Shown: positions 41,355 to 55,742 of the stretch, piece by piece
How the letters are laid out: every line of letters begins with the position of its first letter
How positions within the stretch are numbered: the stretch's first letter is position 1
Origin: an uncultured Verrucomicrobiota bacterium
Lineage (GTDB): Bacteria; Verrucomicrobiota; Verrucomicrobiia; Opitutales; Seribacteraceae
NCBI GenBank assembly: GCA_902580225.1
Contig: CACHJU010000004.1
Span: forward strand, 1-64,000
DNA length: 64,000 nucleotides
Direction of reading: 5' to 3'
The notes under the pieces: model-generated
Told to the model about the DNA's origin: nothing
The model's input: only the letters and a program-made list of their open reading frames with translations
Database searches by the model: none
Program-made: the position numbers and the translations under genes

Positions 41355-42338
41355 ATGATACAGGAAATTGGTGGAAAATCTTTTCGGAAAAAAAGTAAAA
41401 AGAACTTGAAGTTCATTGATCTTTTTGCGGGCATTGGTGGAATCCGTCTTGGGATGGAAGCCGCAGGTGGAAAGTGTGTATTCTCTTCAGAATGGGATCC
41501 TCATGCTAAAAAAACTTACAAGCACATGTTTGGTGAAGAGCCCCATGGGGATATCAATGCTATTGACCATGATGAAATCCCTAAATTCGATGTTCTTACC
41601 GCAGGTTTCCCCTGCCAGCCGTTTAGCAGTATTGGTAAACGGGAGGGCTTTAGTCATGAAACACAAGGAACCTTGTTTCATGAGATTTTAAAGATCCTTG
41701 ATCACCATAAGCCATCTGCGTTCATTTTGGAAAATGTTAAAGGGCTCACTCATCATAAAAGCGGGGATAAGGATACCTTGGAAATTATCCACGATAAATT
41801 GGTTGAACATGGTTATTGCCCTCAAATAAAGCTCCTTGATGCATCTAAATTTGGTGTACCTCAGTACCGAGAGCGAATATTTATAGTTGGTTTCAGGAAG
41901 GATGAGCATTTCAGGGCATCCTGGCGTTTTAAATGGCCTGTTGAAAGTGAAGTAACCGCTACTCTTGGTAATGATATTATCCAGTCCGGTGTAGATGGTT
42001 ATTCCATATCCCAGCACCTTCAGAATTCATATATTTATAAAAAGAATGACGGAAGACCTAGAGTACTGATTCCAGGTGATTGTTCTGATATAACTTTGAA
42101 TACCCTTGTCTCGACCTATCATAAAATCCAAAGATTGACGGGAACATTTGTTCAGGATGGACCAACCGGTTTAAGGCTTCTCTCCGTTCAAGAGTGTCTC
42201 GATATTATGGGATTTCCAAGAGGTTTCGATATTCCCGTTTCAAGGACCCAGGCCTACAGGCAGTTGGGTAATTCAGTGGCAGTACCTGTCGTCAGGGAAG
42301 TCGCCCAATCAGTAGCAGCTGCGTTGGCTGTGAAATAA
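41355..42338 (+). CDS. DNA cytosine-5 methyltransferase (type II R-M)
   Basis: A 327-aa m5C methyltransferase. Motif I is FIDLFAGIGGIRLGMEAAGG, motif IV with the catalytic Cys is AGFPCQPFSSIGKREGF, motif VI is FILENVKGL, motif VIII is PQYRERIFIVGFR and motif X is RQLGNSVAVPVV. The target-recognition region between VIII and IX is short, typical of a 4-6 bp type II specificity. Vsr and a candidate restriction enzyme lie within 3 kb. The operator-like palindrome seen before the restriction and vsr genes has no clear copy here, so the methylase may be expressed independently. Confidence 0.95.
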   Translation: MIQEIGGKSFRKKSKKNLKFIDLFAGIGGIRLGMEAAGGKCVFSSEWDPHAKKTYKHMFGEEPHGDINAIDHDEIPKFDVLTAGFPCQPFSSIGKREGFSHETQGTLFHEILKILDHHKPSAFILENVKGLTHHKSGDKDTLEIIHDKLVEHGYCPQIKLLDASKFGVPQYRERIFIVGFRKDEHFRASWRFKWPVESEVTATLGNDIIQSGVDGYSISQHLQNSYIYKKNDGRPRVLIPGDCSDITLNTLVSTYHKIQRLTGTFVQDGPTGLRLLSVQECLDIMGFPRGFDIPVSRTQAYRQLGNSVAVPVVREVAQSVAAALAVK

Positions 42339-42373
42339 GTACTTTTTTTAAGCTTGGCTAGCCTGGAAAGAAA

Positions 42374-42751
42374 TCAGGCACTCAACCATTCCTTTATGCG
42401 GATTTTATATTTCTCTGCAATTTGTGGGAAATTATTCGATTCAATTTCAAGAAAGTTGCTGGCCTCCTGAAGTTGAACTTCAGTCCTATCAACTCCTTTG
42501 GGATAGTTCATTTCGAGGAAGCCAAAAACTAACCCTTTAAAAGAAGGTTCGCCGTCCATTCGAATTGAATCTATGAATTTTATTAAACCTGCCTCATCTG
42601 GTAGTTCAGGCAGGATGTCAGCAGGTAGAGTGTATTCAATTCCGCAGGAGTCATTGATCTTGAATGACCAACCATCTGAGGTTTGATTTGCGTTGAGCGA
42701 GGTGGAGTCTCCACCAGATGCAGTGTTTGTTGTTACTGTTATGATATTCAT
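42374..42751 (-). CDS. Hypothetical protein (125 aa) in R-M region
   Basis: Begins MNIITVTTNTASGGDSTSLN and continues with SDGWSFKINDSCGIEYTLPAD; soluble, mildly acidic and without signal peptide. No family recognised. It is 36 bp downstream of the 77-aa gene and probably co-transcribed with it. Convergent with the methyltransferase. Could be an R-M accessory, but nothing in the sequence shows that. Confidence 0.5.
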   Translation of the reverse strand: MNIITVTTNTASGGDSTSLNANQTSDGWSFKINDSCGIEYTLPADILPELPDEAGLIKFIDSIRMDGEPSFKGLVFGFLEMNYPKGVDRTEVQLQEASNFLEIESNNFPQIAEKYKIRIKEWLSA

Positions 42752-42787
42752 TTATTTTAAGATTCAGGATTAAAAATTAATTATTTA

Positions 42788-43021
42788 CTAGCGTCCAATA
42801 CAATCTCCCCCTTGTGAGATCAGTACAAAGCGGTTGGTATTTTCAGGGAAGTAAGGATTGTTACCAAGTTTGAATATTCCACGTAAGTGTGCCTTCAAGG
42901 ATTTCTGAAAATTCTTTCCATTGAGATTTTTTTGTCTTTCGAAGTAGTGACTCATTGCATTTATACCCGGTTGATTCTTCCGTGGTCGTTTTCTTCTTTT
43001 GTTTTTATTGAAATCGTTCAT
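42788..43021 (-). CDS. Small basic hypothetical protein (77 aa)
   Basis: The first 15 residues are strongly basic (NDFNKNKRRKRPRKNQPGIN), followed by MSHYFERQKNLNGKNFQKSL. The N-terminus could bind nucleic acid. It is divergent from vsr across 156 bp carrying two copies of the TTACT-N4-AGTAA element, so both genes could share regulation. Not recognised. Confidence 0.5.
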   Translation of the reverse strand: MNDFNKNKRRKRPRKNQPGINAMSHYFERQKNLNGKNFQKSLKAHLRGIFKLGNNPYFPENTNRFVLISQGGDCIGR

Positions 43022-43051
43022 CAGTTGATCTGAAAATGGAGTTTTTATAAA

Positions 43052-43065
43052 TTACTTACGAGATT
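43052..43065. promoter_or_regulatory. Degenerate operator-like site (TTACT-N4-AGATT)
   Basis: The left half-site is perfect and the right half keeps AG only. It lies 33 bp, about three helical turns, from the perfect site at 43085. Weak alone; listed because of that spacing. Confidence 0.35.
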
Positions 43066-43084
43066 TAAAAAAATAATAACACTT

Positions 43085-43098
43085 ACTTTTTAGTAATT
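43085..43098. promoter_or_regulatory. Palindromic operator TTACT-N4-AGTAA, vsr/77-aa intergenic
   Basis: Perfect TTACT-TTTT-AGTAA between divergent genes, about 80 bp before vsr. It contains T-N11-A, the core of LysR-type binding sites, and shares all ten fixed bases with sites at 45995 and 52745. A candidate -10 (TAATAT, 43105) lies just downstream. Confidence 0.65.
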
Positions 43099-43177
43099 TA
43101 TGTAATATTGAATCCAACCGGTTTCTAATGTTTTTTATTTGTGCCATTTCAGAAATTATAAATATAACTTTTTCTAA

Positions 43178-43606
43178 ATGGCTGATAAAATATCACCTCA
43201 AAGGCGTTCCTGGAATATGTCCAGAATCAGGTCTTCGAATACGAAACCAGAGATTGCAGTCCGTTCGGCACTGCACCGCAACGGATTCCGTTTTACAGTA
43301 AATGGACCATTAAACAAGAAGTTGCCTGGCAAGCCAGATCTCGTACTGCCCAGATACAGGACAATTATTTTTGTACACGGATGTTTCTGGCATGGACATG
43401 AGAATTGTAAGATATCCAGAATTCCAAAAACAAGGACGGACTGGTGGAAGTCAAAGATCGGGAAAAATCAGGACCGGGATAAGATAGTCAGAAAAACACT
43501 GCTTGAGATGGACTGGAATATTTTAACTATTTGGGAATGCGAAATAAAAGAAGATCCAACCCTTAAAGAGTTAATTCTCCAGGTTAATCAAAAAAGCGTA
43601 AGTTAA
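43178..43606 (+). CDS. vsr: Very short patch repair endonuclease
   Basis: A 142-aa Vsr endonuclease, which nicks next to T:G mismatches arising from deamination of 5-methylcytosine. Family landmarks: RSWNMSRIRSSNTKPEIAVRSALHRNGFRF (N-terminal helix), GKPDLVLPRYRTIIFVHGCFWHGHENC (catalytic Asp, then the zinc-binding His/Cys region) and WNILTIWECE. It partners the nearby C5 methyltransferase. Its last 23 bases overlap the 3' end of the convergent restriction gene. Confidence 0.95.
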   Translation: MADKISPQRRSWNMSRIRSSNTKPEIAVRSALHRNGFRFTVNGPLNKKLPGKPDLVLPRYRTIIFVHGCFWHGHENCKISRIPKTRTDWWKSKIGKNQDRDKIVRKTLLEMDWNILTIWECEIKEDPTLKELILQVNQKSVS

Positions 43607-44963
43607 GCTTCAATTGTATGCGGTCTCCCCTGTGGTCACTTGGGTATGTCCAGCTAAACACATCCCATGTTTTATCGAGTGGGATTGCCATAAGTTTATC
43701 TATATGAGAGTCCCAGGTTTGGCAGATTAGTTCCTCCCCACTTTCCCTTTTCCTCCTCATGAAAATATTTTGTGCAACCTGAAAGCCGTATTTCAAGTTA
43801 CCTTCAGGTTCCCATTGTCCTTTTAGGACCCATTCAGCCAACTTCCGCCTATGAGGTTCATAAGAAATATGAAAGTCCTGTTTGGTATAATTATAAGAAT
43901 TACTTACCATGCCTTCCCAACTACCATACTCCTGGAACTTGCTGAAGTATTCTCCTAACCTATGGGTTTCGGGTAAACCAAGTATTTCCATAAAATCACT
44001 TGCTCTTCTTTCATGGCATGAAACCTGGCTAGCAGTAGAGTTCTTTACCGAAAAAGTAACTTCTTTTTTCGTGTCCCTAATATGAACAGAGCAAATTATA
44101 TCCGTTTTCGCTTTGCCTCCATTAGATAATAACGGAACCGAGTCGGTTGCCACGAGCCTGTCTATTTCACTGCTATCAATTTTTAACTGTCTGGTAATAA
44201 AAGATGCAATCCTGTCAAATTCAGGTGAACCAGATTGGCCATTTTTCTTAAATTCTGTGAGGAGATCGGGTATGTTCAGGATACCAGTTAAGAATTTTTC
44301 GTACCGGTATCCGATTTTTTCGTAACGGCCTGGATCTTCCGTTGCAACATCTGAGCAAAACTCATCAAAATTAAGTTCCTCTGCGGATACAGCTTCAAAA
44401 GATTCCTGTATGTCCTGTTTCTGAAGTATAATGCCTCTTTCGTATTCAAGGAAAAAGGAATCAAGTTCCTCTACCAGCAGAATATTCTCAAACGGGCAGT
44501 ATTGTTCCTTGTTTTTTACTCTGTTTCTAAAGTTAATAAAACTTTGTTCATTCTCACCAATTACAAATAGCGAACTAACCAAACTGTCAGCGAATTCCGG
44601 GCTTTGAAGGACTCCTTCCATATCATAGTAACTTATCTTTCGCCTGTCCTGCCTGAAGGTATTGGAACCAAAAATAATAATTGTTTTCTCATCAATCGTA
44701 TCTACATAAAAATGCGGACAATGTTCGTTTTTGTAGGAATATCCAGTCTTTGCTAAACTACCAACTTCTCCCCAGTTCCGTATAAGGCTTTGTTTTTTAA
44801 GATTATCAAGAATCCAGCTTATTGCCTTTTTGAAGTCCCTGCCAGATTGAGCCTTCGACTTTTCTTGCCTGTCGAGATTAAATTCGTTCTGAGTCATCGT
44901 AATTGCTTTTGGCCCTCCATGCCCAGGAATGAAATGTTTTCGTTTATATTCATGCAACCACAT
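43584..44963 (-). CDS. Candidate type II restriction endonuclease
   Basis: About 459 aa from the ATG at 44963; another start at 44897 (MTQNEFNLDRQEKSK) has GGAGGG 15 bases upstream and is also possible. A PD-(D/E)XK-like core is suggested by GGKAKTDIICSVHIRDTKKE then VTFSVKNSTASQVSCHERRA: Asp, then a strand ending in S-V-K-N. Identity rests on that motif and on the adjacent C5 methyltransferase and Vsr. I do not recognise a named subfamily; an MspI/HpaII-like enzyme is one possibility. Expression may be controlled through the operator-like site 48 bp upstream. Confidence 0.6.
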   Translation of the reverse strand: MWLHEYKRKHFIPGHGGPKAITMTQNEFNLDRQEKSKAQSGRDFKKAISWILDNLKKQSLIRNWGEVGSLAKTGYSYKNEHCPHFYVDTIDEKTIIIFGSNTFRQDRRKISYYDMEGVLQSPEFADSLVSSLFVIGENEQSFINFRNRVKNKEQYCPFENILLVEELDSFFLEYERGIILQKQDIQESFEAVSAEELNFDEFCSDVATEDPGRYEKIGYRYEKFLTGILNIPDLLTEFKKNGQSGSPEFDRIASFITRQLKIDSSEIDRLVATDSVPLLSNGGKAKTDIICSVHIRDTKKEVTFSVKNSTASQVSCHERRASDFMEILGLPETHRLGEYFSKFQEYGSWEGMVSNSYNYTKQDFHISYEPHRRKLAEWVLKGQWEPEGNLKYGFQVAQNIFMRRKRESGEELICQTWDSHIDKLMAIPLDKTWDVFSWTYPSDHRGDRIQLKLNLRFFD

Positions 44964-45010
44964 TATCAAGGCGGTGGAATTAAACTAAACTAAATTAAAA
45001 GTCAGAATGC

Positions 45011-45053: not shown

Positions 45054-45995
45054 CTACTTTTTAATAGTAGTAGCTTTCTTGAAAATTTTTTGAATTTCTT
45101 TCGCTACGGTTTCGATCTCAGGTTTGTAGTGGAAAGTTTCCTTTTTCCACGCAATTACAAGTTTTCCATGCATATCTGCCAATTCTTTCACGGCGATATG
45201 TTTATAATAATCTAAGGGTAGGTCTTTTGCCAGGAAAGCCGGTAGTATACCGCAAAAGCAATTTGATTTTACGGCCTGAAGAACTTCGAAGTGTGAGCTG
45301 CATTCGAGTTCGTAATTTGGTTTCTTTCCAATTTTATCTGTTGCGTTGTCAACAAACCTTCTCCGCTCTCCAGAGCCAGAGAGTGAAGCATATGGTTCCT
45401 TGCAAATCATCTCCAGTGGAACTTTTCTATATTTAGAAAGATTTTCCCAGGTCAAGGGTGCATATAATTTATACTCGAGTTTTCCGAGAGAAAGCTTTTT
45501 TACATTTTTTCCCAAGCTTTTTTCGGAAACTATAATCAAATCAGCTTCTCCTGCATCCAAAGCATTAGGAAGTTCAGAGCTTCTCATGTTGCATAGATTA
45601 ACCCGTATTTCTTTGGTACTTTCTTTAAGATCGGCAAAGTTTGGCAGTATTACACTGGATAAAAATGTCTCTCCGGCTCCGATTGCAATGCTCGGTTGAA
45701 TGCCGTCGACCTTATCTAGAAAAGCTTGCATGGAAGTCAGGAAATTCTCGGCAATGGTTGCGAGTTCTTCACCCTCTGGTGATAGGCCTTTTAACTTTCC
45801 GTCTTTTTTTCTCAGGCTTACTTTTTCGAAAAACTCCTCGAGCTCTCCTATTTGTCTACTAATTTTTGCTGCTTCAGTTGTGTTACCATTTGCTGCCTTA
45901 AGTATGTAGCCCGCTTTTTTTACAGAAATAAGGCTTTTCAACCTGGCTAGTGAAAAGTTTTTGCTTGTTAACTTGTTAACTCCTTTCTCGAACAT
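45054..45995 (-). CDS. LysR-like transcriptional regulator
   Basis: A 313-aa protein. The N-terminal winged helix is divergent but recognisable as LysR-type: NFSLARLKSLISVKKAGYIL then AAKISRQIGELEEFFEKVSL, ending GLSPEGEELATIAENFL. Residues 95-305 look like the periplasmic-binding-protein-type effector domain (IAIGAGETFLSSVILPNFAD; ELPNALDAGEADLIIVSEKS). It is divergent from the 966-aa gene. Its start codon abuts a perfect TTACT-N4-AGTAA palindrome, fitting autoregulation. Related palindromes precede vsr, the restriction gene and the retron operon, so it is the best candidate regulator of the island. LysR proteins are unusual as R-M control proteins. Confidence 0.8.
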   Translation of the reverse strand: MFEKGVNKLTSKNFSLARLKSLISVKKAGYILKAANGNTTEAAKISRQIGELEEFFEKVSLRKKDGKLKGLSPEGEELATIAENFLTSMQAFLDKVDGIQPSIAIGAGETFLSSVILPNFADLKESTKEIRVNLCNMRSSELPNALDAGEADLIIVSEKSLGKNVKKLSLGKLEYKLYAPLTWENLSKYRKVPLEMICKEPYASLSGSGERRRFVDNATDKIGKKPNYELECSSHFEVLQAVKSNCFCGILPAFLAKDLPLDYYKHIAVKELADMHGKLVIAWKKETFHYKPEIETVAKEIQKIFKKATTIKK

Positions 45996-46008
45996 TACTA
46001 AACAGTAA
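45995..46008. promoter_or_regulatory. Palindromic operator TTACT-N4-AGTAA at the lysR-like start codon
   Basis: Perfect TTACT-AAAC-AGTAA; its first base is also the first base of the lysR-like ATG. Binding here would block lysR-like expression. The divergent 966-aa gene starts 183 bp away, with a TATAAT at 46164-46169. Confidence 0.65.
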
Positions 46009-46190
46009 GTAATAGAATTATTTGAGTTGTTGTCAATATAGCTTGGCCTGTTTATTTCTAATACGAAATTATTTGTTTGTAGGTGAGCAAGTCATTGATG
46101 AAAAGATAATAACAAAATTAGATATCCGGAAATTTTTTAGATGTGCTTACAGACAAATTTGAATATAATCCTTTATTAAAAATAAGTTAA

Positions 46191-49091
46191 GTGGAACAAA
46201 CAATAAAAAGAATTGCTGAACTGCAACTTCAGTACAGCCCCAATGCTACTTCGGCAATGAAGGAGAGGGGAGAGCTTGTAAATAAAACTTTACCCAATGA
46301 ATTAAAGGAAGTGGTAGATTCTTTCGGTAAAGAATATAAAGATCATAAATTTCAAATAAGTGGGCGTGACGGTGCCGGTTTACATGCCACTATCCCGTTT
46401 GTGGAAATAAGAGTACTAAATGGGTTGAATGTAGACTGTGACTTTTATGTTGCGATTTATTTCTCTAGAGACGGTGAGAGAATCTATGTGACCTTTGGTG
46501 CGGATGCTTTAAAGCACAATTTGCACTTACCCAAAAAGAGAAATGAAAGCCAAGCCATTCTTGGGGGAATGCAAGAAATTCTCAGTACGCACAAAATACT
46601 TTCTAAGGATAAAAAAGACTGGTCTCAAAACTTTAAAAGTAAATTAAATCTAAATATTTATTCTAAAGGCACTAGCCTTTCTTTGTACGAAGTTTGTACC
46701 ATTGCTGCCCAGGAGTTTTTCGTTCAGGATCTTGATTTAGAGGATTTTTTGGGATCCATACAGTATGCAATGGAATGCATGATGTGTTTGATCTCTCATT
46801 CTGAAAAAGAGTCATCAGAGACAACCAAAAAAAGTTTTGAAGACTATTTGCTGAGAAATAATAAAACGGGAAGCGGGAAGGCTTCTTCATACATTAGAGC
46901 ACTTTCATTACTTGAGCAGTTGTTAGACCGCCAGCCACAAGGCTTTGAGCATTGCTGTAACATCTGGAAAGTGGAATCAGTTTCAAAATTACATGAGCTT
47001 TATGAATTTGTTCTAATTCAGGCAAAGCAACCTAAGCAGAGTGGCTGGGTTTTTGACGATATTCCTGAAAGTTATCTTGAAAAGGGCTTTTGTAGTGCTG
47101 CATTAAGAGCTTACATCGAATTCAGGTCTTCTTTTGAAGTTCAGCCCCAGCTTTTCTGCCAGCTTGCCCTGCATTATTTACTCGGAGAAAGAGAAAAAAG
47201 TTTTTCCGAACATGGCCCTGGAAACGATTTCCATACTTTTTTCACAGGAGAAAATGAAAAGTACAGTTTTGATAAATTAATGTGCTTTAAACTGGATGAT
47301 CCAGGCCAGGCAGATTTCAAAGAAATAACAAAGGATCTTAAGTTTTTATTGGGTGAAGTTTTTCCATACTTGAGTTCTTTAAACAGATTGGCTCCCCAGG
47401 TTGCTTCTTTTTTTAATTCGAGTGCCTTTTCGGTTGGTAATGATTTATCTATTTATGTTTACCCTTACCTGGACTGTATTAAAGGTCTCCAAAGCTTAGA
47501 GGTATCAGAAGATTTCAAATTAGTTCCGTTTCTTTCCAGTCTGATAAATGCTCAGAATGATTTTAATACTGCAGGTTTCGCTTCTTCTGGGCTAATTAAA
47601 TTTGTATGTGAAAGTGCACTCAAGGAAGCGGGTCCAGGCAGTACAGTTTATGATCCAGCCTGCGGTATTGGAACTGTCCTGATTTGTGCATTAGATCAAA
47701 TTTCTGGAATAAGAGATCTTTATCAAATTTCAGGTTCTGAGATAAACCCCGTATTGGCAAATATAGCTAAAGCCGGATTTTTGCTTAAAGCATTTACAAT
47801 TCGCGACAAATTGGACCCTGTTGTTTTAAACGATTTAATTTTCAGAGTATCACCTAATATCCGCATTGAAGATTCCCTTAAATCCAACCAGCAAGTTATA
47901 AGAGATTTGAGTGAGCATTGGTCGAGTTATAATGAACTTCTTATGTATCCTCCGTACCGCGGCGATCATTTAAATAAGTATGATTATATTATTACTGAGC
48001 CACCTCAAGATGGGGCTGGTTTAAATGAGACTTTTCTCAAATTAGATCATCAACAATTTCTTTTATTCTGTGCATCCCGAAATATTCAAGCTCAACAGTC
48101 GTTGTTGATCCTGTCAGAATCAATCCGTAGGAGTGAAAGAGATGGGCAGCTGAGGGATTTGATGATTAGAAACTTTCCACCTACTGCTATTTATCATGCA
48201 CATGCAGAAAAAAAAGTGATTCTTCATTTTGAAGAGTTCCGCCCTGACAAGTTAATATTTGGCGATATTGCTGATAATAACAACTCAAATGCGGAGAATG
48301 TCCCTCTAGAAATTAGTAATCTAATTACAGCAAGTAAGGACGAAATAGTTTCTGGAAACCGGGAACTTGTATTTTCGAGAGAGACTAAAACCGAGAATGA
48401 ATCAACAAAAGTTAGTTTTGAAAAAGCCCGTCAATACTTTGAGTTTCAAATTGATAAATTCAATGATTTATTAAGAGAGTCCCGTCAAATTCATGACGAA
48501 ATTGAAAATACGAAACAAGAATATCAACCTAAAAGAAAATTGGCTGAGTATTTATCGGGAGGCCAGGGATGGCTGGATGTATCTGGTAGTTCGTTGAAAG
48601 GATTGGACATAGGTTTAATGGAAGAAAGCAAATCCGAAAAGGTTGCTGTTATTGAAGTATTCAGTAACCGCACGAAACTTAAACTACAGAAAAAAATTGG
48701 CCTCATGGAACAACTTAACCGTGAGCATTTAGAGACAACACCTCCATATCAGATCTACTTCGTGCATAATGAGAGAGAAAAAATCGACCCCAGTTTCTTA
48801 TACTATTGGATTAGAGCACAATTGAGCTCAAAAATAGAAAAACAGCTCCGCCGTAAAAGTATTGTTGAAGTGCCAGTAAGAGTAGATTTTTTAATGCATG
48901 AAATTTGTAATCAAAAAATCACAATCCCACCTTTTTATTTACAAGGTACAATTGCCAAATTTTTGCGTAAATTATTTCCTCTTGCTGGAATCAATATGAG
49001 TGGTGGATTTGGACTAAAGATGGGTAGTGGAACGAGTTCTTCCCGCACTCCTCATATCGTTGACATGATAAGGTATTTATTGTGTCTATAA
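46191..49091 (+). CDS. McrB-N (DUF3578) + altered N6-methylase-like + specificity-like fusion
   Basis: A 966-aa protein with a GTG start. About residues 1-200 resemble the McrB N-terminal modified-base-binding domain (SGRDGAGLHATIPFVEIRVL; YVAIYFSRDGERIYVTFGAD). About 455-680 resemble HsdM-type N6-adenine methylases: motif I is STVYDPACGIGTVLICAL, but motif IV, normally NPPF/Y, reads DYIITEPPQDG near residue 600. About 790-935 look like a type I specificity half (QGWLDVSGSSLKGLDIGLM, then VPVRVDFLMHEICNQKITIP). The loss of the catalytic Asn suggests a DNA- or SAM-binding reader rather than a methylase. First gene of a four-gene set. Confidence 0.7.
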   Translation: MEQTIKRIAELQLQYSPNATSAMKERGELVNKTLPNELKEVVDSFGKEYKDHKFQISGRDGAGLHATIPFVEIRVLNGLNVDCDFYVAIYFSRDGERIYVTFGADALKHNLHLPKKRNESQAILGGMQEILSTHKILSKDKKDWSQNFKSKLNLNIYSKGTSLSLYEVCTIAAQEFFVQDLDLEDFLGSIQYAMECMMCLISHSEKESSETTKKSFEDYLLRNNKTGSGKASSYIRALSLLEQLLDRQPQGFEHCCNIWKVESVSKLHELYEFVLIQAKQPKQSGWVFDDIPESYLEKGFCSAALRAYIEFRSSFEVQPQLFCQLALHYLLGEREKSFSEHGPGNDFHTFFTGENEKYSFDKLMCFKLDDPGQADFKEITKDLKFLLGEVFPYLSSLNRLAPQVASFFNSSAFSVGNDLSIYVYPYLDCIKGLQSLEVSEDFKLVPFLSSLINAQNDFNTAGFASSGLIKFVCESALKEAGPGSTVYDPACGIGTVLICALDQISGIRDLYQISGSEINPVLANIAKAGFLLKAFTIRDKLDPVVLNDLIFRVSPNIRIEDSLKSNQQVIRDLSEHWSSYNELLMYPPYRGDHLNKYDYIITEPPQDGAGLNETFLKLDHQQFLLFCASRNIQAQQSLLILSESIRRSERDGQLRDLMIRNFPPTAIYHAHAEKKVILHFEEFRPDKLIFGDIADNNNSNAENVPLEISNLITASKDEIVSGNRELVFSRETKTENESTKVSFEKARQYFEFQIDKFNDLLRESRQIHDEIENTKQEYQPKRKLAEYLSGGQGWLDVSGSSLKGLDIGLMEESKSEKVAVIEVFSNRTKLKLQKKIGLMEQLNREHLETTPPYQIYFVHNEREKIDPSFLYYWIRAQLSSKIEKQLRRKSIVEVPVRVDFLMHEICNQKITIPPFYLQGTIAKFLRKLFPLAGINMSGGFGLKMGSGTSSSRTPHIVDMIRYLLCL

Positions 49092-49116
49092 GTATAATTT
49101 TTAATTTTTTAAATCC

Positions 49117-51015
49117 GTGAGCAAAGATAAAACCGAAAGTATCCAAGCCGAGTTAGAGCGGCTTACACCTAAGCAGCAAATTCACGCATTAAATTCGCTT
49201 CCAAGTAAGTTCGATAAGAACGATTCGTTTCTTCATAGTTTAAAGTTAGGGAAATTTAAAGCTTTTGATGAGCCTCAACTAGTTGAGTCGCCTTTAATTT
49301 CTCTTTTGTATGGTAAAAATAGTGCTGGGAAATCAAGCCTTGTTCAGTCTTTACTCTATCTGAATGAAGCGAGAAAAGGGAATTTTGATGCACATGATAC
49401 GGAACTTGGTGGTGATTCTGTAAACCTTGGAGGATTTTATAATTTTATTCACAAGAGGGATGAAAAAGACAAAGTCCAAATCGATTGTGAGCTAAATATT
49501 CCAGAATTTGGCCGTTGTATCTTAAAATTCGATTTTGGAGAAATCGAAATGGCTAGCACCTCACACTTTACTGACATACCTAAAGGTGCAACTGATTTAG
49601 ATCAAGAAATCATAAACCAGTTTTTTGTTTACAAAAAAGATCCAGAAGTGGTTAAAAAGCTTCTTGGATTAAAACCTGACGAAGAGATCAAAGTTAGTTT
49701 TCAAACTGAACAAAGGGCGAGTTTTGAAAAACAGATTAAGTTACTCGATATATCAGTTGTTTTGGGTGAAGTTGAAATTATAAGCTTCTCCCAAAGTCAC
49801 TTTAGTGAATGTTTCAAAATAAATTTTACTGAGGGTCTTGAAAAAATTGGTCTTAACAAAGAAGACTGGGAGCCTTTTGCAAATTCGCTTCAGGCCAAAA
49901 CTGCTTTTAATAAACTGGTTCCAGAAAATCTTTTTCATAAAAAAATAATGGAAAACGATGGTCCGTTTGATAAAAAGCAGGAGGCGGAACACAAAAGCCT
50001 TCGAAATTTAATAGTACATGGGAAAGATAAAAATCTGTTGGGTAAACTTGGTGGTTTTCTCAGTAAGATTTCAACGGAGTTAGGCGCTGTTCTTGATAGC
50101 TTCAATTATTTTAGTGGGAACAGGGCAATGCCATCACAAAACATTCTGGATGGTTCGTCTGGTACCAAAAGCTCTGGTGATGCGGGAGGAGAAAGATGCT
50201 GGGCGGATATAAAGAAAGATAAAAAGCTGATGGACAGGGTTAATAAATACCTGGGAGATCTTTTTGATAACAGATACCAGCTCGTTCTCATCAAAAGTTT
50301 TTCAGCAGAAATAGCCTCCAAGGTTGCAGGTGAAGCCTTGAGCGAGTCATTGGGGTTAAGTGGAGAAAGTAAGGATGAAGAAGGTGGCAGAGAGGTGTAT
50401 GCAGATGATCATATTGTTGAAGATGAGTCCTTCGAGTATGGCTCACCTGTAAATTCACTTGATCCTGAAGATCTTAAAAGTAAAGTTCTAAACAAATTAA
50501 ATTCTAATAAGCAAGTCCCAGAGTTCACTTCGTTGAGAATTTGGGATAATGTGCCCGATCTACCGCTCAGGCTACAAGACTTGGGCCGTGGTGTAGGCCA
50601 GGTGATTCCAATCATCGCAGCTAGTTGCGAACCTGGCCGCACAATTATCGTTGAGCAGCCGGAATCTGATTTACATCCTAAGCAACAGTCGATTCTTGCT
50701 GATATGCTTATCGAAAATGCAGTTAAGTATGGAACAAGGTTTATTATCGAAACCCATAGTGAATTTTTGCTTCTTCGGCTTTTAAGAAGAATTGGGGAAA
50801 CGGATGCGGATAAATTATCAGACGAAGATAAAAACTATGCCCTCGATGTTGAACAGTTAGGCGTTTACTATGTACACGCTGCCGATCAGGATGAAGGGCG
50901 TACTGGTGTAAAGGTGGAAAGAATGGAAATCTCTCCCAAGGGCCGGTTAAGAAATCCATGGCCAAAAGGTTTTTTCTCGGAAAAGAAAGAAGATATTTTC
51001 TGGCATGCAGGCTAA
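49117..51015 (+). CDS. AAA15-type ATPase with DUF3696
   Basis: A 632-aa SMC/ABC-like ATPase, GTG start. LGKFKAFDEPQLVESPLISLLYGKNSAGKSSLVQ holds the Walker A (about residue 65); an ABC-like LQDLGRGVGQVIPI and Walker B TIIVEQPESDLHPKQQ (about 511) follow, then FIIETHSEFLLLRLLRR. The C-terminus (MEISPKGRLRNPWPKGFFSE) is DUF3696. No TOPRIM domain is fused, unlike OLD nucleases. Such ATPases act as sensors or motors in several defence systems (PARIS AriA is an analogue). It overlaps the next gene by 11 bases. Probably drives the nuclease encoded two genes downstream. Confidence 0.85.
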   Translation: MSKDKTESIQAELERLTPKQQIHALNSLPSKFDKNDSFLHSLKLGKFKAFDEPQLVESPLISLLYGKNSAGKSSLVQSLLYLNEARKGNFDAHDTELGGDSVNLGGFYNFIHKRDEKDKVQIDCELNIPEFGRCILKFDFGEIEMASTSHFTDIPKGATDLDQEIINQFFVYKKDPEVVKKLLGLKPDEEIKVSFQTEQRASFEKQIKLLDISVVLGEVEIISFSQSHFSECFKINFTEGLEKIGLNKEDWEPFANSLQAKTAFNKLVPENLFHKKIMENDGPFDKKQEAEHKSLRNLIVHGKDKNLLGKLGGFLSKISTELGAVLDSFNYFSGNRAMPSQNILDGSSGTKSSGDAGGERCWADIKKDKKLMDRVNKYLGDLFDNRYQLVLIKSFSAEIASKVAGEALSESLGLSGESKDEEGGREVYADDHIVEDESFEYGSPVNSLDPEDLKSKVLNKLNSNKQVPEFTSLRIWDNVPDLPLRLQDLGRGVGQVIPIIAASCEPGRTIIVEQPESDLHPKQQSILADMLIENAVKYGTRFIIETHSEFLLLRLLRRIGETDADKLSDEDKNYALDVEQLGVYYVHAADQDEGRTGVKVERMEISPKGRLRNPWPKGFFSEKKEDIFWHAG

Positions 51016-51985
51016 AGAGCATCTCTCGATTTTTGGTTTAGATCCTAAGATTTTTATAAATCGAATTGATAGGGATGAGGATGATTTCCAGATCAAAACA
51101 TCTTGGGGTAAATTGGAAGAACGTTTACTTGGGCCTGCTGCAAAAAATCGGACCAGTGAGATTGGTGCTTTGATTTGGGATGCCATTGATGAAGATGGGA
51201 ATCGTTTTTCGAGTTTGGTTATGGAAAATTATGAACTGCTTGAAAATGAGCCAAAAGCAATATTTGATGAGCTTATGCAATCAGGAAGAATAGTTGATGA
51301 GCTGTACAAAGAAGATTCTGAACAGGAAACTTTTGGAATTGTTGCTGAAAGATTAACTTTAAGTGATTTGGAGGAGATAGGGGATGATTGCATTTCATCT
51401 CTCTTGGAAGAAAGTGAATCTTTAAATGGTTTTATCTCATACACCAGTTTCTTTTCAGTCAGCTACACTAGAGAAGATTGGTGGTTGCAGTTTGAGCCTG
51501 ATTACACTGAGTGTAATCTTGATACTCAGTTAAGCGAATTTCGAAACATACTCCTATATTCAGAAGACATTAGTATTTTTGATAGAGAGTGGGAGCCTGA
51601 CAACAAAACTGGCTACTTATCAGTAAATAAGATCTTTGAGCTAATCCAATGCAACCGACTTGACCCCGTTGTAAGAATCCATAGAAAAAACACTGATGAT
51701 TTTCACAATTGGCTTGGTCCTACAAAAGTAGAAGCATTTTGTGATCGTGCAAAAGCTAAAGTAGGTAATGTGAAAGTTAAGATCTATTTTTGGCGAAAGC
51801 AGTACATCCATTTTAGGGCAATATGTTGCAGTTATGGTGGTTATCATTCAAGTTATGGAGTCCAGGAATTTGATGATGCCAGTCAGTTGTACACTCCGAT
51901 TCCTGCGAAGACATTAACGTCCATTCATCATGCTTTTATACCTGACGATAATAATAAAGCATTTTCAGCAATTATGGATGTGTAA
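51005..51985 (+). CDS. Hypothetical protein linked to the DUF3696 ATPase
   Basis: A 326-aa soluble protein overlapping the ATPase gene by 11 bases, so co-translated. It is acidic in the middle (LSDLEEIGDDCISSLLEESE); the C-terminal third has VVRIHRKNTDDFHNWLGPTK and KVKIYFWRKQYIHFRAICC, resembling the end of phospholipase-D-like or sensor domains, though that is weak. No motif is conclusive. A one-mismatch copy of the operator palindrome lies inside it (51613) and is probably chance. Obligate partner of the ATPase by context. Confidence 0.6.
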   Translation: MQAKEHLSIFGLDPKIFINRIDRDEDDFQIKTSWGKLEERLLGPAAKNRTSEIGALIWDAIDEDGNRFSSLVMENYELLENEPKAIFDELMQSGRIVDELYKEDSEQETFGIVAERLTLSDLEEIGDDCISSLLEESESLNGFISYTSFFSVSYTREDWWLQFEPDYTECNLDTQLSEFRNILLYSEDISIFDREWEPDNKTGYLSVNKIFELIQCNRLDPVVRIHRKNTDDFHNWLGPTKVEAFCDRAKAKVGNVKVKIYFWRKQYIHFRAICCSYGGYHSSYGVQEFDDASQLYTPIPAKTLTSIHHAFIPDDNNKAFSAIMDV

Positions 51986-52018
51986 GTATGTGGATTTACA
52001 TTTTTATATACTAATTTA

Positions 52019-52642
52019 ATGCCTAAAAGTATTTCTACACAACTGAAGTCTTTAAATCTAATTTCAGGCGAAAAAACTATAAATGTTTTTGATAACCTGT
52101 TTAAAAATATTCTTAAAAAAAAGATCACTTCTAGTTCGGGTTTTATAAATACAAGTTGTAAGCAGTTTAAAGCAAGCCCTGCATACAACTCTAAAAACTA
52201 CAGTCTTAATGGTAATGTTTTTGAAGGTCTGCTTGCAGTCCTTTTTTACCGAGTTGGGATTTACCCTCTATTCCGTCAGGCGAAAATGGCTTTTATTCCA
52301 AATATCGAATTCGATTTTGTGGCATATTCAAAAGAGATAGGGCCAATAGTACTTTCGGCCAAAACTTCCCTGCGGGAAAGGTATAAGCAGGCAGACCTGG
52401 AAGGGATAATGATGAGGCAGGTTCACCGTCGTGCGAAGTCTTATCTTCTGACCTTGGATGAAGATGAGGCAATGAATGTTAATTCTAAGATTAAGGAGGG
52501 GAAGGTGCTTGGCATTGACCGTGTGTATGTTGCCTCTGAGCCAGAGTTTGATGATCTTGTTGAGGAGTTGAAAAGCTGGACTCTTATAGAGCCTCAAGCC
52601 GAGCCTGTAGTCGAAAGTAGCAGGATTATCAGGCCTTCCTGA
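52019..52642 (+). CDS. PD-(D/E)XK-like nuclease
   Basis: A 207-aa protein with a nuclease-like core: GNVFEGLLAVLFYRVGIYPL (Glu of the first helix), IPNIEFDFVAYSKEIGPIVLSAKTSLRERYKQADLEG (Asp, then the S-A-K strand and the following Arg-rich helix). This E...D...xAK pattern is typical of restriction-type nucleases and of small BsuBI/type IV-like effectors. It starts 34 bp after the preceding gene and ends the four-gene cassette. It is the likely DNA-cutting component. The 176 bp after it hold an operator and the next promoter but no gene. Confidence 0.65.
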   Translation: MPKSISTQLKSLNLISGEKTINVFDNLFKNILKKKITSSSGFINTSCKQFKASPAYNSKNYSLNGNVFEGLLAVLFYRVGIYPLFRQAKMAFIPNIEFDFVAYSKEIGPIVLSAKTSLRERYKQADLEGIMMRQVHRRAKSYLLTLDEDEAMNVNSKIKEGKVLGIDRVYVASEPEFDDLVEELKSWTLIEPQAEPVVESSRIIRPS

Positions 52643-53735: not shown

Positions 53736-53762
53736 CAATCTATTTTGCGGAGGTACGAAATA

Positions 53763-55742
53763 ATGAAGGAGGAGGAGTTGAACTTTATTAGAACCTGGGG
53801 AACTTTGCTTTGTTCAACCGAGCGGAGATTAAAGGAATTAGCCTGGGAGCTTGCGGATGCAAGAAGGTACAAACAGTTTGCGATTCCAAAGTCTAATGGA
53901 GGGCTGCGGATAATTAGTGAGCCGATTGATTCTCTAAAGGAGATTCAGCGTTTGTTGCTTGTTATTATGGAAAGGTCATACGAGCCACTCGGGAATTCTC
54001 ATGGTTTTATTTCACGGCGTAGCATACTCACGAATGCAAAGCCGCATGTCCGGAAGCCCTGGGTTTTTAATACTGATATAGAAAAGTTTTTTCCGACAAT
54101 ACGAATGGAAAGAATCAAACAGGTACTATCCGATATAAGGTTGAAATTTCTACTCGATGTTCCAGGTAATCAAAATGCAGTCACTTTTAAAGAGGTAAGA
54201 TTGAGTGCAGAGATTGTATCATTGCTTGCGAATCTGTGCTGTTTCCGACAAGTCGAGGGTAGTGACGATCCAGAAAGCTGGTATGGTTTGCCACAGGGGG
54301 CACCTACATCTCCGATATTATCAGATATGGTAGCCCGAAAAATGGATGAGGACATACTCAGCTTTTGTGCGGATAGGGGTATTGAATATACCAGGTATGC
54401 GGATGATTTATCTTTTTCCCCTTTGGATCCGAAGGACTACTATGGGTACAAGCAATTAATTGTTGGGAGAGTTTCTAAAAACCCTGAGCTATGGACGGAA
54501 TTGAAGGAAATTATCAATAGTTATGGATTCCGTATTAACGCCAAGAAAAATAAATTGTTTTGTGGGAAGTCATGTAAGCAGGTGACCGGACTTTCAGTAA
54601 ATGAATTTCCTAATGTTCCAAGGAAGGTCATTCGTTCGATTCGACAGGATTTATATCTTTGGGATAAGCATGGGCACGACCGTGCAAATGATATTATTCA
54701 TGAAAGAAAGAATTACCGTCATAAAAAATGCCCTAAGCGTTTGAAGAATATGCTTCATGGTAAACTTATGTTCTTGTCTATGGTAAGAGGGAAGGGTGAT
54801 CCTGTTTATTTGCGGTTTGTACGTCGGTTTCAGGAATTGGAGAAACGGGATATGCTGAATTCATCCAGCGGGAATTTTTCCTGTAAATGGAGCCCCGTTA
54901 ATATGTGGGATGCAAACAGTAACTGGATGTCTCAGGCAGGAAGTGAGGAGATGAGATTCAGGGTAAACCTCGAGGATTTCCCTAGGCGGTCGGCCAAGCA
55001 CTTTGGTGACAGGAGAAGAATTTTTCTTCAAAAATCAGGGGATTTACGTGGCATGCTTAGAACCGAAGTGGGTGCCTGGGCGTATGAGCGTTTGCAGCAT
55101 ACTTTTAATCTACGGCAAAACCTGATGGATGAATTTACTTATGATCCATTTGTAAAGGGTGGTAAATGCCTACTTGAATATATGCTGGAAGCAGAGGCGT
55201 CTTACTTGCATCTTTTACATGATGAATTGATTGAAAGTCAGGCACATGATGCGTGGAGTGCGTTGTTCTTTCGACTCATGGAAATTAATGGAAATACTTG
55301 TTCAACAAAACTTTTGGATCCTGCATTCCGATGCCATATGGAGCATATCGACTGGGGTACTTTTTTCCGTCATCAAAATGACGAGTTTCTTTCTAAGCGG
55401 TATGGTTATGAAAAATTTGATCTTAATGATTTGTTAAGCATTGCGTCATCCCCCAAAAGGCGGGTAACACCAACATCTTCGCTTATGCTTTGGACTGCCT
55501 TGGCACCCATGGCCCTCAATACAAAGGACGAGGGTTTAGGTTCGCACCGTAAATTATTCCAACAGACTTTGGAGGATACTCCTCATTTTTTCCCACTTTT
55601 TGATGATGTGCTTACAAGTTGTGGCAGAACACGAAACGGGAACCCGCCGAGCTTATCCATGCACACTATGAGAAAAGGTATTTTTACTTTCATAAAAGCA
55701 TTTGGAGCAAAGCCTATTCATAAACAACTAGCACTTATTTAA
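53763..55742 (+). CDS. Retron-type reverse transcriptase with long C-terminal extension
   Basis: Start moved from the listed TTG (53745) to the ATG at 53763, which has GGAGG 9 bases upstream; 659 aa. RT motifs: VFNTDIEKFFPTIRMERI, LPQGAPTSPILSDMVARKMD and YTRYADDLSFS (catalytic YADD, about residue 211). The retron marks are NAKPH (X region, about 90) and VTGLSVNE (Y region, about 274). A normal retron RT ends near residue 340; here about 320 more residues follow (for example RTEVGAWAYERLQHTFNLRQ; DWGTFFRHQNDEFLSK), an alpha-rich region I do not recognise that could be the effector or a docking part. Two bases separate it from the next gene. Confidence 0.92.
   Translation: MKEEELNFIRTWGTLLCSTERRLKELAWELADARRYKQFAIPKSNGGLRIISEPIDSLKEIQRLLLVIMERSYEPLGNSHGFISRRSILTNAKPHVRKPWVFNTDIEKFFPTIRMERIKQVLSDIRLKFLLDVPGNQNAVTFKEVRLSAEIVSLLANLCCFRQVEGSDDPESWYGLPQGAPTSPILSDMVARKMDEDILSFCADRGIEYTRYADDLSFSPLDPKDYYGYKQLIVGRVSKNPELWTELKEIINSYGFRINAKKNKLFCGKSCKQVTGLSVNEFPNVPRKVIRSIRQDLYLWDKHGHDRANDIIHERKNYRHKKCPKRLKNMLHGKLMFLSMVRGKGDPVYLRFVRRFQELEKRDMLNSSSGNFSCKWSPVNMWDANSNWMSQAGSEEMRFRVNLEDFPRRSAKHFGDRRRIFLQKSGDLRGMLRTEVGAWAYERLQHTFNLRQNLMDEFTYDPFVKGGKCLLEYMLEAEASYLHLLHDELIESQAHDAWSALFFRLMEINGNTCSTKLLDPAFRCHMEHIDWGTFFRHQNDEFLSKRYGYEKFDLNDLLSIASSPKRRVTPTSSLMLWTALAPMALNTKDEGLGSHRKLFQQTLEDTPHFFPLFDDVLTSCGRTRNGNPPSLSMHTMRKGIFTFIKAFGAKPIHKQLALI

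Follow-up and report, generated by a model that had tools for sequence, protein, structure and literature searches.

A methylase-like protein with an altered motif IV ahead of an ATPase and a phospholipase D-fold protein: a possible recognition subunit from a remodelled type I restriction locus

What can a DNA methyltransferase still do once its catalytic motif has been altered? The question is raised by an open reading frame (ORF) of 966 amino acids (aa) at positions 46191-49091 (+ strand) of a 64,000-nucleotide stretch, the window, which comprises positions 1 to 64,000 of contig CACHJU010000004.1 (assembly GCA_902580225.1) of an uncultured Verrucomicrobiota bacterium (Opitutales, Seribacteraceae). 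The ORF begins with GTG, runs without interruption and is the first gene of an operon in which it is followed by genes for a DUF3696 ATPase and for a protein with a predicted phospholipase D (PLD) fold. A preliminary description, made from the DNA letters, regarded the product as a methylase-like protein that reads DNA modification rather than writes it. Our preferred interpretation, to which we give about an even chance, derives the operon by remodelling from a LysR / HsdR-HsdM-HsdS-ATPase-PLD locus and sees in the 966-aa protein a subunit that recognises DNA without writing on it and sets off the ATPase-PLD pair.

Motif IV and the make-up of the 966-aa protein

The description of the protein as a methylase-like ORF fused to an McrB-N domain is borne out by Pfam, in which both domains score above their cut-offs. 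MrcB_N (aa 22-185, 46254..46745; all features of the ORF lie on the + strand) reaches 32.5 bits, above both its cut-off of 25 and the 28.8 bits that the same profile gives to E. coli McrB, and N6_Mtase (PF02384, aa 468-537) reaches 22.4 bits against 20.4. In hhalign the methylase region matches an HsdM profile at 97-99%, so that its kinship to HsdM is not due to chance. The HsdM N-terminal region and the start of the methylase fold occupy about aa 375-504 (47313..47702); within them aa 375-470 align with the HsdM N-terminal region (BLASTP 3e-9 to the HsdM of locus L038; hhalign 97%). PADLOC gives weak type I methylase matches, and the whole protein, compared with the PDB by phmmer, finds a single methylase at E 0.82. 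Motif I, DPACGIGT (aa 488-495, 47652..47675), is intact, as had been noted.

Motif IV of N6-adenine DNA methyltransferases reads (N/D/S)PP(F/Y/W). Two candidate sites for it are present here, EPPQ (aa 603-606, 47997..48008), which the preliminary description had singled out as replacing NPPF/Y, and YPPY (aa 586-589, 47946..47957), which lies 14 residues upstream and had been missed. At both sites the PP pair is followed by G, and at both N/D/S is missing, so that neither is canonical. Which of the two holds the motif IV position? Run in global mode (-glob), hhalign aligned EPPQ with NPPF; MAFFT aligned YPPY, not EPPQ, with NPPF in 8/8 runs. In a profile of the upstream strand, built from the 8 residues that precede NPPF in 43 HsdMs, the residues before EPPQ (NKYDYIIT) score 10.1 bits, the top site of the whole protein (the second scores 4.7), and those before YPPY (SSYNELLM) score -3.1 bits. 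Because 10.1 bits is reached somewhere in 72 of 1000 shuffled proteins, this score is only suggestive alone, yet it falls directly before a PP pair. The next conserved block follows EPPQ after 19 residues and YPPY after 36, compared with 24-26 in HsdMs. The probable motif IV position is EPPQ, to judge from the profile alignment, the spacing and the strand that precedes it; YPPY is disfavoured by its negative upstream score and its long spacing.

The loci fetched in the searches described below hold 46 distinct HsdM-like ORFs. Of these, 43 carry NPPF, and the exceptions are two fragments, cut or split, and a pseudo-enzyme in locus L129. The 966-aa gene therefore departs from a nearly fixed motif, with its motif I, reading frame and operon kept. 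METTL14, with the motif EPPL, has been found inactive by structure and by mutants (PMC5023411). With motif IV lost at either candidate site, NPPF nearly fixed among the HsdM-like ORFs and an EPPx motif like that of inactive METTL14, the conclusion that the 966-aa protein is not a methylation writer is well supported, and on this point the preliminary description holds.

A module at aa 208-318 (46812..47144) is found elsewhere as the N terminus of ~290-aa HNH_2 endonuclease-type proteins, with 33-50% identity across 18 loci; in one such protein, in locus L002, HNH_2 scores 45.8 bits. The C terminus resembles half of an HsdS (aa 825-928, 48663..48974). Here the earlier claim of a specificity-like end stands in reduced form, since PADLOC Specificity_I models do match, the best at aa 856-927 (25 bits, E 2.4e-6), and the match is weak and covers one half only, whereas the HsdS of a type I restriction-modification (RM) system has two target-recognition domains (TRDs). 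Among the 30 best BLAST matches listed, none pairs this end with an HsdS ORF from the fetched loci. The protein is accordingly a fusion of MrcB_N, HNH-associated module, HsdM-like region with degenerate motif IV and half-HsdS-like region; the module, the HsdM N-terminal region and the operon with ATPase and PLD-fold genes had all gone unnoticed at first.

Does the protein read DNA modification? Its MrcB_N is 30% identical to that of an MrcB_N~NOV_C protein in locus L019. The base pocket of E. coli McrB MrcB_N, which we take to consist of Y41, W49, Y64 and L68, aligns with A, F, Y and Y in the 966-aa ORF, so that the base specificity has probably changed. Modification reading by the 966-aa protein, the other half of the preliminary description, is something that we infer only, from its domains: the MrcB_N of E. 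coli McrB binds methylcytosine (PMC11090510). The target may be a modified cytosine bound through MrcB_N, an unmethylated site bound through the TRD-like end, or an anti-restriction protein.

Operon partners, relatives and origin

The ATPase gene (49117..51015, +; 632 aa) starts about 25 bases after the 966-aa gene and overlaps the third gene (51005..51985, +; 326 aa), giving three open, closely spaced frames over 5.8 kb. Its product is an ABC/SMC-type ATPase with Pfam AAA_21, AAA_15 and DUF3696 matches in which Walker A, Walker B and the H-loop are all kept, as they are in 51/51, 51/51 and 50/51, respectively, of the ATPases that have a PLD partner. It is weakly AriA-like in PADLOC (53.4 bits; 90.3 bits for its relative in L127). 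The third gene, for an effector-like protein, gives no family match of note in Pfam/PADLOC-type model scans and, by its alignment, no match in a PDB profile search. Its structure model is confident over aa 165-326 (blocks mostly at a predicted local distance difference test score, pLDDT, of 77-90), and in a fold search the modelled aa 161-325 match PLD enzymes, best a phosphatidylserine synthase (Z 11.7), with the restriction nucleases SauUSI, BfiI and the R protein of NgoAVII among the matches. The catalytic motif of the PLD superfamily is HxKx4D. The third gene has the fold and not this motif: it keeps H269 and R271, and the aspartate of HxRx4D is S. HxR is invariant in 33/33 aligned sequences of the third gene, and 57 related ORFs carry HxRx4D (29), HxRx4E (15), HxRx4N (6), HxKx4N (1) or HxRx4P (1), with 5 outside the pattern.

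Divergent from the operon lies the gene of a 313-aa LysR-like regulator (45054..45995, -). Its LysR_substrate domain scores 66.1 bits and its helix-turn-helix (HTH) domain HTH_1 only 12.3 bits against a cut-off of 26.6; it is 30% identical (2e-33) to the LysR of L038, in which HTH_1 scores 58.4 bits. The divergent intergenic region (45996..46190, strand not assigned; 25% GC) is a probable promoter region, in which we found no strong promoter match. The reading frames of the locus are intact and codon-position GC is normal. GC is 37-39% in its four genes and 46-51% in a sample of four longer genes from beyond the island, a difference as for acquired DNA.

Where does such an operon come from? 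Least open to bias is a search of the whole class with aa 331-770 by themselves (384 genomes including the window's own, threshold 1e-5), in which four genomes matched, its own and three others (L038, L231, L232). All three others carry the order LysR / HsdR-HsdM(NPPF)-HsdS-ATPase-PLD, with HsdR split over two frames in L232, and for this reason we regard the window operon as a remodelled form of this six-gene locus. LysR, ATPase and PLD are present in the same order in the window, HsdR is absent, and HsdM and HsdS are fused. No ORF of HsdR type lies between LysR and the ATPase, and a search of the window's genome, which is 66.6% complete, for HsdR came back empty. The nearest NPPF-bearing HsdMs, in complete LysR-HsdRMS-ATPase-PLD loci, likely represent the ancestral state. 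The preliminary description had named NPPF/Y homologues together with a gene-dependent N6-methyladenine motif as what would speak against it; of this pair only NPPF is at hand, and in these nearest HsdMs, which are not orthologues.

The association of the effector pair with restriction genes is wider. An ATPase-alignment scan of the genome collection yielded at least 432 relatives in at least 592 stretches, from which the best 80 loci were fetched. ATPase and PLD genes are adjacent in 43 of these 80; 33 of the 43 have HsdM, 30 have HsdR, HsdM and HsdS, and 10 have no HsdM in the fetched stretch. In 79 loci from viral collections the pair occurs in 7, with all three Hsd genes in 4 of them. Of the 80 genome loci, 9 show a match to the window's methylase region. 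Twelve of the fetched loci have this HsdM type (L038, L123, L124, L128, L130, L134, L141, L155, L156, L195, L231, L232), and LysR is present in four of them (L038, L130, L231, L232). The ATPase tree groups the window in a set of 17 rows (99/95) that also holds every one of the 8 loci of this HsdM type present in the tree. LysR may also precede the pair without RM genes, as in L131 (7378-11754, Verrucomicrobia), where the fetched stretch holds LysR, a 211-aa ORF without Pfam match and ATPase-PLD.

A second fusion of this kind is found in Poseidonibacter lekithochrous (L129:1907-3808), where a 634-aa ORF joining HsdM to half an HsdS (N6_Mtase 54.2 bits, Methylase_S 77.6 bits) stands directly before ATPase-PLD. 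By inspection of the profile alignment, its motif I is degenerate (LDLNLESSN) and its motif IV reads IPVF. BLAST finds no similarity between this ORF and the window protein, so that the same change seems to have arisen independently; a degenerate HsdM fused to half an HsdS thus stands before this effector pair in two cases. The fusion is followed by an intact HsdM-HsdS-HsdR set, the HsdM of which has NPPF. Its half-HsdS shares 25% identity with the first half of the neighbouring HsdS, which gives no reason to suppose that the two recognise one site. Neither plasmids nor 199 genomes of its order, its own among them, gave a full-length orthologue of this fusion.

Other genes accompany the ATPase-PLD pair in some loci. 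A sigma54-activator-like protein, presumably RtcR-like, lies near it in L133 (7386-12017), L160 (2992-7178) and L058 (1-7417). In three genomes of the window's order a protein of 1272-1286 aa precedes it (L039 9221-13081, L041 54-3914, L042 2148-5966), standing behind HsdS in L039 and L042; the L039 copy has no significant Pfam match. Within the window, positions 41355-44969 beside the operon hold what looks like a complete type II RM island, with genes for a C5-cytosine methylase, a Vsr endonuclease and an MspI-type restriction enzyme (129.8 bits). Downstream, at 52019-52642, lies a BsaWI-like restriction enzyme gene (24.6 bits, cut-off 26.2) with no methylase adjoining; it was considered as a nuclease of the operon and is treated as separate because two of three plasmid relatives stand directly beside a cytosine methylase (the third does not). 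Per-gene GC over 45054-52642 is 37-40%, against 46-51% outside the island. Positions 53745-55742 encode a 665-aa reverse transcriptase, nearest in PADLOC to RT-Protease_XI and RT-TIR_XII and followed by a DUF3127 protein, possibly a defence reverse transcriptase.

A possible mechanism and its rivals

If the operon is a remodelled restriction locus, its history and action may be pictured as follows. An ancestral LysR / HsdR-HsdM-HsdS-ATPase-PLD locus would have lost HsdR; HsdM and half of HsdS would have fused, keeping motif I and losing the catalytic tetrapeptide; and the fused protein would have gained MrcB_N and the module from HNH-type nucleases. The TRD-like end and MrcB_N would then select DNA by sequence, modification state or both, the DNA-bound complex would activate the DUF3696 ATPase, and the ATPase would in turn direct its PLD-fold partner at invading DNA or at the cell itself. 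The prediction is that the protein does not methylate, yet that defence depends on its binding. A broader proposal, that a dead HsdM~HsdS sensor or decoy (for methylation state or anti-restriction mimics) that fires an ATPase-PLD effector has arisen on more than one occasion from type I restriction machinery, we put forward as possible and tentative.

Several observations weigh against the recognition-subunit interpretation. In addition to the MAFFT placement of motif IV, the pocket residues of MrcB_N are kept only in part, the half-HsdS assignment is weak, and the structure model of aa 331-966, with a mean pLDDT of 45.5, is too poor to show whether a Rossmann-like fold sets motif IV near the S-adenosylmethionine site. 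The window protein is known from its one incomplete genome, and no search gave a full-length orthologue with which to compare EPPQ. Among 387 genomes of the phylum 27 matched, including its own, mostly through the module, one through MrcB_N and the rest through short methylase or HsdS-region pieces; 372 genomes of the order, searched with aa 331-966, gave its own and four methylase matches. Plasmids, phages and IMG/VR held no orthologue (at E up to 10 the best 20 of 622 plasmid matches were methylases or unannotated), and viral scans with single proteins and alignment scans with the module or MrcB_N gave no relative. The branch that leads to the ATPase is very long (3.2), and its place in the tree is unsure. 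Together with the degenerate HTH of LysR and the lost PLD aspartate, this branch fits early decay or fast evolution.

Could the locus then simply be an acquired system in early loss, its frames open by chance? These three features, and the absence of the third gene from every other genome among 42 of the family, are what such a decaying pseudo-operon would show, and it is the main rival, though in our judgement an unlikely one. The three frames are open and closely spaced, the H and R of the PLD motif and motif I are kept, and fusion and domain gain are not decay events; the kept ATPase motifs, intact frames and normal codon-position GC disfavour plain decay. Fast divergence of the ATPase is equally what a decoy or guard would bring with it, in which a dead HsdM~HsdS serves as bait for DNA mimics that hit type I cores and its capture fires ATPase-PLD. 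The AriA-like scores of the window ATPase and its L127 relative suit this idea, as does the intact HsdM-HsdS-HsdR set that adjoins the Poseidonibacter pseudo-enzyme, and PARIS is described as sensing Ocr, and PrrC as sensing inhibition of its host RM system (PMC12707154). A decoy leaves no clear role for MrcB_N, and searches of the window's genome turned up no type I system, a weak negative given its completeness of 66.6%; we consider a decoy doubtful.

There are two further readings. An active methyltransferase with an unusual site, EPPQ or YPPY, possibly working with a separate partner, would account for the intact motif I and for the PP pair and G at both candidate sites. It is improbable in view of the missing N/D/S at both, the inactivity of METTL14 with EPPL and the lack of an HsdM partner in the operon; the sole other PF02384 match in the genome is a PrmC-like gene adjoining a PrfA-like gene (names by inspection). 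That the protein is a sequence-specific regulator or binding protein without defence role, with ATPase and PLD acting alone, gains from the 10 of 43 genome loci in which the pair stands without HsdM, L131 among them. The ~25-base gap and overlapping frames of the operon and its synteny with RM loci argue against it, and we hold it to be likewise improbable.

Comparison with known systems

MrcB_N, HsdM, HsdS, DUF3696 ATPases and PLD proteins are each already known. So are the restriction-linked effectors PrrC and PARIS (PMC12707154) and inactive Argonautes with nucleases (PMC6299218). Searches of open-licence literature gave no account of a dead HsdM~HsdS fusion as reader or of a type I RM system with ATPase and PLD, which is not proof that none is published, and nothing on DUF3696 related to this system.

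The closest relatives, the LysR / HsdRMS-ATPase-PLD loci (L038, L130, L231, L232), share with the window the divergent LysR and the order HsdM-like, HsdS-like, ATPase, PLD. Unlike them, the window has no HsdR, its HsdM and HsdS are fused with motif IV lost, and MrcB_N and the HNH-associated module are added. The Poseidonibacter fusion is likewise a degenerate HsdM~half-HsdS directly before ATPase-PLD, but lacks MrcB_N and the module, has also lost motif I and lies beside an intact HsdM-HsdS-HsdR set. E. coli McrB, of a type IV restriction system, shares the N-terminal MrcB_N; in contrast to McrBC, the window protein has no AAA_5 GTPase, its operon has no McrC match, and MrcB_N is joined to a methylase-like body. 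PARIS consists of an AriA-type ATPase and the TOPRIM effector AriB, whereas here the ATPase is weakly AriA-like and the third gene has a PLD fold and not TOPRIM. A MADS system calls for MAD2, MAD3 and MAD5 matches above their cut-offs; here mad2 reaches 22.9 bits and MAD3 14.4 against 420, so that the operon is not MADS.

Restriction systems recognise foreign DNA by the absence of a mark that they write on their own, and cut it. In the window a self-marking immune system has apparently been turned into a recognition-only system that hands DNA to an ATPase and a nuclease-like partner; if this is true, a catalytically silent methylase is an immune receptor, and two cases without detectable similarity before the same ATPase-PLD pair would make the passage from methylase to receptor a repeatable route. 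The writer seems silenced and kept as the recognition part for a different effector, as in METTL14 and inactive Argonautes. METTL14 shares the methylase fold and an E-P-P-x motif IV and is non-catalytic, serving to bind substrate (PMC5023411); unlike the window protein it is eukaryotic, acts on RNA and works beside an active paralogue. A Piwi-like protein (24.0 bits, cut-off 28.9) precedes the same ATPase-PLD pair on the Deinococcus plasmid p96k (L028 5138-9897). Inactive prokaryotic Argonautes pair with PLD and other nucleases (PMC6299218) and thus resemble the proposed model in joining a non-catalytic recognition protein to a separate effector; their recognition is guide-directed, whereas that of the window protein would be TRD-directed.

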